This document shows positions 305-43,793 of a stretch of DNA of 64,000 nucleotides, piece by piece. Below the pieces are notes generated by a model, which made no database searches, was not told where the DNA came from, and worked only from the letters and a program-made list of their open reading frames with translations. Position numbers and translations under genes: made by a program. Numbering within the stretch: position 1 is the stretch's first letter; each line of letters starts with the position of its first letter. Origin of the DNA: Rhizobium tropici CIAT 899 (GTDB lineage Bacteria; Pseudomonadota; Alphaproteobacteria; Rhizobiales; Rhizobiaceae); assembly GCF_000330885.1 (NCBI RefSeq), contig NC_020059.1, positions 1,973,001-2,037,000 on the forward strand, in the 5' to 3' direction.

Positions 305-2578
<2,274 letters not shown>

Positions 2579-29758: not shown

Positions 29759-30778
29759 TCAAGTGAGAGAGAACAGACCCAGAGCAGACCTTAATTCGGC
29801 AAACGTCGCCTCTGTCCGCTCCCTCGCCTTTCGCGTCCCCTCCCGCAAGACTTCCATCACATAGTCCGGTTCAGCGGCATAACGCGCGCGACGCTCGCGG
29901 ATCGGCGCGAGCAGCGCTTGCAGGACATTCTCGAGATGTCTCTTCAAGGTGACGTCGCCAAGGCCGCCGCGGCGATAATGCTCTTTCATCTCTTCGACGA
30001 ATTGCCGATCCTCACAAAAAGCATCGAGATAGGTGAAGACGACATTTCCCTCGACCTTGCCGGGATCGCTGACGCGCAGATGATCCGGATCGGTATACAT
30101 GCGCCGCACCGCATCCCTGATCTCATCGGACGATGCCGAAAGCGGGATCGCATTACCCTGCGATTTGCTCATCTTCGCCTTGCCGTCGACGCCGGGCAGA
30201 CGCCCGACAGCCGGCACCATCGCTGTAGCCTCCACGAGAACATCTCGCCCGATCTGCTGGTTGAGACGGCGAACGATCTTATTGGTCTGCTCGATCAACG
30301 GCGCCTGATCCTCCCCGACGGGAACGACGGTCGCCTTGAAGGCGGTGATATCGGCGGCTTGCGCGACCGGGTAGCAGAGAAAGCCGGCCGGTACATCGCG
30401 TTCGAAACCGCGCAGCTGGATCTCCGTCTTGATCGTCGGATTGCGCTCCAGGCGACTGACAGTCACGAAATTCAGGTAGAGTAGTGTCAATTCCGCCAGC
30501 GCGGGTAAAGCGGATTGAACGCAGGTCGTTGTCAGCGCCGGATCGATGCCGACTGCAAGATAGTCCGTGGCGACTTCAAGGACGTTGCGCTGCACTTTCT
30601 GGGGATCATGCGCATTGTCCGTCAGTGCCTGCGTATCCGCCAAGAGCAGGAATTGCTCATGGCTATGCTGAAGCGCAACGCGGCTTTTCAGCGACCCGGC
30701 ATAGTGGCCGAGATGGAGTGGACCCGTGGTCCGGTCGCCCGTCAGGATGACGGGACGATTATCGGTAGGGGAAAACAT
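29759..30778 (-). CDS. trpS: Tryptophanyl-tRNA synthetase
   Basis: 339 codons from the ATG at 30778 ([19 protein letters not shown]), with GGAG 8 nt upstream. Class I signatures HLGH (the HIGH motif, in [12 protein letters not shown]) and KMSKS are intact. It charges tRNA-Trp. The variant [14 protein letters not shown] and the DTQALTDN segment are those of the subgroup that differs from the E. coli-type enzyme; whether the organism has a second trpS elsewhere cannot be seen. The 5' leader (30779-30941) holds a complete Trp-codon attenuator, so expression should rise when charged tRNA-Trp is scarce. Confidence 0.96.
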
Positions 30779-30818
30779 TTCATTGCTCCGCAAAAGGAGC
30801 CGCCGCAATCGGGAAGGG

Positions 30819-30869
30819 AAAAACGGAAATGGACCATGCCCGCCGGATTACGGCGGCAGGGTCGATTTC
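30819..30869 (-). terminator. trpS attenuator terminator hairpin
   Basis: On the - strand a long hairpin (30869-30826) pairs GAAAT/ATTTC, GACC/GGTC, TGCC/GGCA and GCCG/CGGC around a TAATC loop. It totals 17 bp with two mismatches and one bulged G, and is followed by CG and five T (30823-30819). It sits 40 nt before the trpS start codon. The left arm overlaps CTGCCGC (30853-30859), which can instead pair with GCGGCAG (30882-30888) as an antiterminator. Confidence 0.75.
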
Positions 30870-30890
30870 AAGACATGACGACTGCCGCTC

Positions 30891-30941
30891 CTAGAAGGAG
30901 CGCCACCACATTTGGAAAACGGGCTCGGCAAGGTCGATCAT
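30891..30941 (-). CDS. trpS leader peptide with Trp-Trp codons
   Basis: A 16-codon frame MIDLAEPVFQMWWRSF ends in TAG. The two adjacent TGG codons are at 30908-30903. The last codons (CGC TCC TTC TAG) form the left arm of a perfect 7-bp hairpin, CGCTCCT-TCT-AGGAGCG (30902-30886). This is the layout of trp-operon leader peptides: Trp pair, pause hairpin, antiterminator, terminator. No Shine-Dalgarno is visible upstream of the ATG at 30941; translation could be leaderless, as is known for the rhizobial trpL leader, or start at the internal ATG at 30911. Confidence 0.65.
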   Translation of the reverse strand: MIDLAEPVFQMWWRSF

Positions 30942-30950
30942 GGGCGGTTG

Positions 30951-30977
30951 ATTACACCGTTGCGCCGCAATCGGCAA
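30951..30977 (-). promoter_or_regulatory. Possible promoter for the trpS leader
   Basis: TTGCCG (30977-30972) and TGTAAT (30956-30951) on the - strand, separated by 15 bp, could serve as -35 and -10. Transcription would then start at or next to the leader ATG at 30941, consistent with a leaderless leader peptide. The spacing is short and the -35 is weak. Confidence 0.35.
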
Positions 30978-43416: not shown

Positions 43417-43689
43417 TCCGAAGAGCTGCTCTCAGCGCAAAAAGCGATCGAGTGACGACGGCTGTGGGAAATAGGTCACTATATCCTGTGAATCGTGCGA
43501 TCTCGCTGCTCTTTGAACTTTACGAAAATCTGAAATAGGTTTTTCCTATCAATTACAGAGACAAACGCACTGGTTGATTCGAAAAAGGCCGGGCGATTGC
43601 CTCATAAGGATCGATTTCGAGTGCCTGCGTCGGCGGGTCTATTCGCTCTTCGGCGCAGTCGGGGTTTGTTTTTCAAAGCATGCGCTAAG

Positions 43690-43793
43690 TGTTCTCCTGG
43701 CGCGTCCTGAAGCCGCAGGTGTTTCCTCCCTTGCCTGTGGTGATGCGCCCGCCTTGCCTCGCTCGCTGAACCAGCTGAGCGGGGCATCTTTTT
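43690..43793 (+). ncRNA. Candidate small RNA with CU-rich loop and own terminator
   Basis: The strand shows nested structure. GGCGCGTC (43699-43706) pairs with GATGCGCC (43742-43749; one G-T). It encloses a small hairpin CCTG-AAGCCG-CAGG and an unpaired TTTCCTCCCTTGCC that could bind ribosome-binding sites. Next comes a terminator hairpin, TGCCTCGCTC (43755-43764) with GAGCGGGGCA (43777-43786; one G-T), then TCTTTTT. No gene on this strand ends nearby: the DUF922 stop is 270 bp upstream. The 5' end and promoter are not identified. The rest of 43417-43689 shows no gene. Confidence 0.45.

Follow-up and report, generated by a model that had tools for sequence, protein, structure and literature searches.

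A conserved tandem-Trp leader upstream of an auxiliary tryptophanyl-tRNA synthetase gene in Rhizobium tropici: a probable ribosome-mediated attenuator with output at the ribosome-binding site

The window analysed here is a stretch of 64,000 nucleotides of Rhizobium tropici CIAT 899 DNA; all coordinates below are positions in this window, given on the minus-strand reading. A tryptophanyl-tRNA synthetase (TrpRS) gene is preceded by a leader that combines a short open reading frame with a series of complementary strands, designated e1 to e5. The features of the locus are as follows.

30949-30977, minus strand: putative promoter, TTGCCG at 30977-30972 with a TGTAAT/TAATCA-like -10 sequence, indicated by the spacing of the TTG in the leaders
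30891-30941, minus strand: leader peptide ORF MIDLAEPVFQMWWRSF, from ATG at 30941 to TAG at 30891, with UGG UGG at 30908-30903, read from the sequence
30897-30902, minus strand: strand e1, CGCTCC, pairing with GGAGCG at 30891-30886; e1:e2 coevolves
30882-30891, minus strand: strand e2, GGAGCGGCAG, partner of e1 or e3; GCGGCAG at 30888-30882 pairs with CTGCCGC at 30859-30853
30846-30859, minus strand: strand e3, CTGCCGCCGTAATC, the shared switch strand, partner of e2, e4 or e5
30826-30869, minus strand: hairpin P3 (e3:e4 with an outer stem), the proposed default structure, terminator-like in the genus and coevolving
30819-30823, minus strand: run of five T after P3, with CG between P3 and TTTTT; not conserved outside the genus
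30799-30810, minus strand: strand e5, GATTGCGGCGGC, 12 bp with e3, its 3' end common to the Shine-Dalgarno hairpin
30785-30800, minus strand: Shine-Dalgarno (SD) hairpin GCTCC-TTTTGC-GGAGC, with the SD sequence GGAG at 30789-30786; coevolving
29759-30778, minus strand: auxiliary tryptophanyl-tRNA synthetase (TrpRS II type), 339 aa, start codon ATG at 30778, assigned by TIGR00233 and its structural relatives

The enzyme passes the NCBIfam model TIGR00233 (233.4 bits against a cut-off of 176.75), and the solved structures closest to it are 1yi8 (tryptophanyl-tRNA synthetase) and 2a4m (tryptophanyl-tRNA synthetase II), both at E about 1e-117. We take these two chains to be the auxiliary TrpRS II of Deinococcus radiodurans, an enzyme with a known nitric oxide synthase partner. 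A second TrpRS, 32-35% identical to the window enzyme in two segments, is encoded elsewhere in the R. tropici genome; the region upstream of this housekeeping trpS was read, and no WW leader was seen there. The original prediction had taken the window gene for the rhizobial trpS, an identification that has to be abandoned: judged by its relatives, the gene is an auxiliary TrpRS and not the housekeeping trpS, and only a minority of congeners possess it. At E<=1e-60, TrpRS II is found in 39 of the 148 genomes of the genus, with that of R. tropici counted. It is present in 28 of 117 genomes of the genus of the Bradyrhizobium locus L024 and, with the enzyme of a relative as the query, in 13 of 297 genomes of the order (own genome counted).

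All six congeners lacking TrpRS II that were checked have cckA (identified by NF046020) directly facing the gene on the other side (identified by PF04227, presumably psuG-like), with no TrpRS II between them. The gene and its leader therefore appear to behave as one unit, gained or lost between cckA and this neighbour. Broken TrpRS II frames occur in L205/L155 (genome G504), in L139 (G305, apparently the same genome) and in L140 (G234), and the leader is still recognisable beside the broken gene in G504 and G234. A Bradyrhizobium genome, G164, carries two TrpRS II copies (L121 and L141), each with a WW leader of its own, as well as a further TrpRS. In the window, a GC-rich hairpin (31000-30984) directly follows the cckA stop codon and adjoins the putative leader promoter on its upstream side; the scan reports it as terminator-like on the plus strand. 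Farther away, at 43634-43790 on the plus strand, the window contains a match to the Rfam small RNA Atu_C7 (64.5 bits, gathering score 45).

The original prediction described the leader as a Trp-codon attenuator, and the ORF, the adjacent Trp codons, the stems and the CG followed by five T are all present on the minus strand at the coordinates listed above. Strand 30810-30799, the SD hairpin at 30800-30785 and the auxiliary nature of the gene had no part in it. Folding energy alone is only modest evidence for the leader, because 7 of 200 shuffles fold as well as the 199-nt stretch (minimum free energy -75.4 kcal/mol, z -2.26); its conservation is strong evidence. Over the trpS leader, no Rfam family scores above its gathering score, and there is no Rfam match of the T-box kind. 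A sigma-70 scan of the window under E. coli-like rules reports no promoter site. A simple terminator scan of the window does not call P3, whose stem is interrupted and, as seen by eye, is set apart from the T run by the CG.

Relatives of the leader were gathered from the best 80 loci of a contig search and from genome searches in the genus and the order. The layout of the window is shared by 68 distinct leaders, 30 congeneric (30 of the 39 congeners that carry TrpRS II) and 38 from elsewhere. The expected conservation of Trp codons and compensatory changes is borne out across many genera and far beyond chance. Tandem Trp codons are present in 65 of the 68 by hand count; L009, L031 and L144 have a single W, and in L009 no ATG start was found for the leader ORF. 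The leader peptides diverge in sequence except for their end, WWRS(F), whose Arg and Ser codons constitute strand e1 and which for this reason is retained in most of them. Changes in e1 are matched by changes in e2, as in CGCTTCC/GGAAGCG of L150 and CGCTGC/GCAGCG of L016. Nearly all peptides stop two or three residues past WW; in L007 the stop codon of the ORF has been lost. In 61 of 67 leaders, a TTG is found 35-37 nt before the ATG of the leader ORF. Together with a -10-like sequence immediately 5' of the ATG, this suggests a leaderless ORF with its start site at or near the ATG; the leaderless start foreseen originally is thus probable.

Two kinds of leader can be told apart. The first, to which the window belongs, occurs in Rhizobium, Microvirga, part of Bradyrhizobium, Pseudolabrys, Cupriavidus basilensis, Paraburkholderia and others, and the T run after its large hairpin is weak or absent. 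The second, found in Ruegeria, Salipiger, Mesorhizobium sp. 65-26, other Bradyrhizobium, Oxalobacteraceae, Burkholderia and Aeromonas, has a compact hairpin and mostly a longer T-rich tail, weaker in some Burkholderia. Both kinds are present in the genus of L024. On a TrpRS tree of 99 rows, the states first kind, second kind and no leader require 10 changes (a quick tree in which 35 of the 96 forks are open).

Pairing between the strands was assessed by swap tests and pair counts, since, with about 25 effective sequences, the noise in APC-corrected covariation across all column pairs prevented a ranking of helices. The predicted hairpin across the end of the leader ORF (e1:e2) coevolves: 0-1 of 5000 permutations are as good, and two of its six pairs show double changes. 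The proposed antiterminator e2:e3 stands as a pairing: 27 of 28 representatives have 5 or more contiguous pairs. The strands are nearly invariant, however, and their covariation is weak (157 of 5000 permutations as good; 12 of 5000 for the flank only), which would be natural in a strand held in place by several partners. Similarly, the large hairpin at 30869-30826 is present and coevolves, but its stem is imperfect and its T run is not conserved beyond the genus. No permutation out of 5000 equals either the whole of P3 or its outer stem in the swap test of 21 representatives, and 76-83% of cells pair for P3 on the fixed alignment. The whole off-state structure has 84.0% of cells paired on this alignment; its double-change pairs are reached by 34 of 500 shuffles, its pair types by 3 of 500 and the remaining three measures by none. 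It is less convincing there than e3:e5, in an alignment where P3 and the SD hairpin fall out of register between clades, which lowers their support.

Strand e5 lies just upstream of the Shine-Dalgarno sequence and, in leaders of the first kind, is complementary to e3 over about 9-12 pairs. The helix e3:e5 shares bases with both P3 and the SD hairpin. Across 28 representatives, both partners have changed in 8 of its 12 pairs, and the changes are clade-specific. In the swap test on mean energy, 0 of 5000 permutations are as good, whether 28, 21 or 15 representatives are used. None of 500 shuffles comes up to the structure composed of e1:e2 and e3:e5 on even one of five measures, and the slid controls all fall below it on all five. 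The SD hairpin itself is equalled by 0-5 of 5000 permutations, with 75% of cells paired on the fixed alignment. A pairing of e2 with an anti-SD strand e6 (AGGAGC/GCTCCT), which looks appealing in the window, was rejected: 2514 of 5000 permutations do as well, which is chance level.

The e3:e5 helix extends to more distant leaders, recurring in alpha-, beta- and gammaproteobacteria. In 19 terminator-type or distant representatives, each leader's own helix averages -18.99 kcal/mol versus -13.48 kcal/mol for exchanged partners, and 0 of 5000 permutations are as good. These 19 were obtained from 36 rows by dropping L128, L136 and L137, which have doubtful start codons, and by reducing near-copies; six terminator-type leaders (L054, L059, L066, L068, L076 and L138) were left out of the test. 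Considered one at a time, 13 of the 19 outscore 190 or more of 200 shuffles made from the leader's own downstream sequence, and more than 5% of shuffles are as good in the other six (L020, L048, L052, L055, L060 and L079), with L055 the worst at 192 of 200. The named gammaproteobacteria are represented by Aeromonas (L078), where 2 of 200 shuffles are as good and 9 bases are shared.

A hairpin of at least 4 bp is predicted at the ribosome-binding site (RBS) in all 47 leaders examined, and in 45 of them it has bases in common with the e5 helix; the two without overlap are L020 and L079. In L211 and L215, from another class of the same phylum, every pair of the RBS hairpin uses e5. Formation of e3:e5 is therefore a natural release for the SD sequence. 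The opposite sign, in which e3:e5 would repress by blocking the RBS region, would agree with the length of the helix, with the position of e5, whose end lies 19-24 nt upstream of the start codon, and with the fact that e2:e3, favoured on stalling, would release e5. We hold it to be very improbable, given that e5 contributes to the RBS hairpin in those 45 of 47 leaders, so that e3:e5 tends to free the SD, and that predicted energies point the same way: in 25 of 28 leaders, forcing e3:e5 makes the SD cheaper to open than forcing P3 does (by 1 kcal/mol or more in 20 of them), and in 3 the P3 state is the cheaper one. The mean opening cost is 3.5 kcal/mol with e3:e5 forced and 5.3 kcal/mol with P3 forced.

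The ensemble energies of the e3:e5 and P3 states are close (-47.1 and -48.9), and by summed helix energies e3:e5 falls short of P3 together with the SD hairpin by about 10.7 kcal/mol. A plain thermodynamic switch set by ribosome position was considered and discarded, as equilibrium folding gives the same RBS opening cost with the ribosome at the second UGG (8.1 kcal/mol), at the stop codon (7.9) or absent (8.3). The RBS is more closed with the ribosome at the stop codon in only 10 of 28 leaders, and without a ribosome in 13 of 28. The proposed switch would therefore have to be kinetic, settled during synthesis of the RNA, as other attenuators are. The proposed displacement of e2 by e5 is allowed, because in all 28 leaders e3:e5 is a stronger helix than e2:e3.

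The reading that we consider probable is a ribosome-mediated attenuator of the auxiliary TrpRS, in which five RNA strands take part and the output lies at the ribosome-binding site. With charged tRNA-Trp at hand, the ribosome would get to the leader stop codon and mask e2, e1:e2 forming thereafter; e3 would form P3, and e5 would help to close the SD hairpin, turning trpS off. Where P3 is followed by a U-tract, weak in the window and strong in other clades, transcription would also terminate. If charged tRNA-Trp runs short, or uncharged tRNA accumulates under a TrpRS inhibitor, the ribosome would stall at UGG UGG and cover e1, and the free e2 would take the 5' half of e3, delaying P3. Once made, e5 would gain a toehold on the 3' half of e3, left unpaired by e2, then displace e2 and form e3:e5, removing bases from the SD hairpin and allowing trpS to be translated. 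We infer the identity of the on state, the order of these events and the ribosome as the signal, as well as a backup role of the enzyme under TrpRS inhibition or Trp stress. Compared with known classes of regulator, the leader possesses an ORF with sensor codons near competing stems and mutually exclusive stems 1:2, 2:3 and 3:4, as in leader-peptide attenuators, and an SD that is apparently sequestered by a strand which an alternative helix can remove, as in translational ones. A conserved U-tract directly after stem 3:4 is lacking in leaders of the first kind.

The distribution of T runs bears on how much of the control is transcriptional. Between the hairpin loop and e5, a T run of 4 or more (4-5 in the genus) is present in 23 of the 30 congeneric leaders versus 4 of the 38 from elsewhere; over all 68 leaders the longest T run is 1-2 in 26, 3 in 15, 4 in 17 and 5 in 10. 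Control by transcription termination alone, as originally proposed, would make this a classical attenuator with P3 as intrinsic terminator, e2:e3 as antiterminator, and e5 and the SD hairpin as incidental. In its favour are the five T after P3 in the window, the T runs of the congeners, the strong terminators of related Bradyrhizobium, Ruegeria, Mesorhizobium and Oxalobacteraceae leaders (for instance GGGCGGCCTTTTTGTTT) and the Streptomyces precedent, which is transcriptional going by its title. We nevertheless regard it as unlikely, since the T run is nearly confined to the genus among first-kind leaders, the terminator scan of the window does not call P3, and the covarying e3:e5, which touches the SD hairpin, persists along with that hairpin, both of them coevolving. 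A combination of the two levels in R. tropici, with weak termination at P3 and translational control through e5, would account for the intermediate T run that accompanies the conserved e5 and SD hairpin in the genus, and many terminator-type relatives have both a U-tract and e3:e5. We give this combination little credence; it meets the same objections as the five-strand attenuator acting at the ribosome-binding site, and the weight of each level is not readable from sequence.

A covariance model of the first kind of leader is largely specific to TrpRS II genes in its strong matches. It has one match in the R. tropici genome at E<=0.01 (8 of 4530 first-look candidates scored) and, at the same threshold, hits 15 genomes out of 385 in the class and 24 out of 398 in the phylum. 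Among 13 distinct matches with E < 1e-5, four of which are leaders used to build the model (L187, L202, L204 and L206), 11 lie directly before TrpRS II, with the frame broken in L205; the other two lie before trpG (L207) and a GNAT acetyltransferase gene (L209). Five of the 23 weaker matches precede TrpRS II (L201, L211, L212, L213 and L215) and one precedes trpE (L222); some of the remaining weak matches look like chance.

Leaders before other genes were also seen. In L207 (1465-1637), from another class, the same architecture (MNGTPVSIIVAQWWRFQ with its stop codon, GCCGCCGTG/CACGGCGGC and an SD hairpin) stands upstream of trpG, apparently followed by trpD, with a short ORF, MPSNSPF..., between the leader and trpG. 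A single-Trp leader, MTSNRSTRFKAYWRSFT and stop, precedes the acetyltransferase gene, not trpS, in L209 (1468-1640). The trpE leader of L222 (around 1501-1635, minus strand), from the Bradyrhizobium group and a weak model match at E 0.0088, encodes MSTVVAPCRLWWRTS followed by a stop and resembles the trpS leader, perhaps with an e5-like strand as judged by eye. In L199 (around 1501-1626), a leader-like ORF, MFTTCTRNAWYFTPLT and stop, has Trp-Tyr-Phe in a row and is followed by a hairpin and a T-rich tract. A search of the R. tropici genome for a trpE leader with ATHTGGTGGTGG found nothing, and the broader pattern TGGTGGTGG gave 45 + 42 sites.

The leader goes with the backup status of TrpRS II. 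The number of TrpRS genes was checked in 51 genomes, namely 50 from the best 80 loci and that of R. tropici: 36 have another TrpRS, and 15 have TrpRS II only (E<=1e-20). As we read the sequences, a Trp leader is present in 32 of the 36 two-TrpRS genomes versus 1 of the 15 single-TrpRS genomes, three of which are metagenome assemblies (L051, L072 and L074, one of 1.7 Mb) where a second TrpRS may be missed. Of these 32 leaders, 28 have WW, and L009, L031, L055 and L066 (the last by eye only) have a single W. No Trp leader was seen in the two-TrpRS genomes L047, L049, L061 and L063. The sole single-TrpRS genome with a leader is L076, whose hairpin has no T tract; L072, with a TTG-started WW ORF near trpS and the stems absent, was scored as a gene without a leader. 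The association gives a Fisher p of 3e-8 with relatedness ignored. Six independent pairs can be drawn on well-supported branches of the tree, of which on average 5.0 go in the same direction and 0.1 in the opposite one (median sign test p 0.06). Cupriavidus is a case in point: C. basilensis, with two TrpRS, has the leader, and its single-TrpRS relatives are without it. These genomes amount to a natural experiment, in which the leader is nearly always missing where TrpRS II is the sole TrpRS.

Control of this sort has precedents. A gene for an auxiliary antibiotic-resistant TrpRS is reportedly under ribosome-mediated attenuation, according to the title of Vecchione and Sello 2010, and Vitreschak and colleagues are said to have surveyed proteobacterial attenuators in 2004. 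In Streptomyces, a leader peptide with Trp codon(s) was predicted upstream of S. avermitilis trpS2 (PMC1262725), a leaderless trpL2, MMTRTCTQLWRAA, without a U-rich stretch precedes trpS in S. lividans (PMC8079986), and the second TrpRS of S. griseus is indolmycin-resistant (PMC6804068). The excerpts of these sources agree with our leader in placing a Trp-codon leader peptide before a TrpRS gene, that of the auxiliary trpRS1/trpS2; they differ in that attenuation is described there as transcriptional, the phylum is another, and the excerpts describe no five-strand arrangement of e3:e5 and SD. The rhizobial trpE(G) attenuator (trpL, rnTrpL) has consecutive Trp codons, a leaderless ORF and alternative terminator and antiterminator stems, much as is proposed here, but controls a biosynthesis gene by transcription attenuation, and the passages available from these reports describe no anti-Shine-Dalgarno strand (PMC7298713, PMC10117765). 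In Caulobacter crescentus, an excerpt on ribosome profiling places a small leader CDS upstream of this alphaproteobacterial trpS (PMC4117421), a likeness of position. Leaderless polycysteine short ORFs of mycobacteria, as excerpted from a review (PMC9031893), regulate downstream translation through tandem sensor codons; they are leaderless, as the present ORF probably is, but sense cysteine, belong to actinobacteria and have no known homology to it. The literature searched, with most subscription papers outside its scope, yielded no description of a proteobacterial trpS leader with an anti-Shine-Dalgarno strand. Attenuation of an auxiliary trpS is itself known from Streptomyces; the anti-sequestor output appears new.

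A wider interpretation, for which we see roughly even chances, is that e3 is passed from the antiterminator to the anti-Shine-Dalgarno partner, so that a single stalling event would set translation and, where the U-tract remains, transcription as well. Leader and TrpRS II would then make up a self-contained Trp-stress cassette spread across alpha-, beta- and gammaproteobacteria, with the leader lost once the enzyme becomes the only TrpRS. If this is true, an attenuator can move its output between termination and translation while its codon sensor stays unchanged, and one gene family retains the natural intermediates. Gram-negative soil bacteria would, moreover, have a scattered, inducible backup TrpRS that can be likened to the indolmycin-resistant auxiliary enzymes of Streptomyces.
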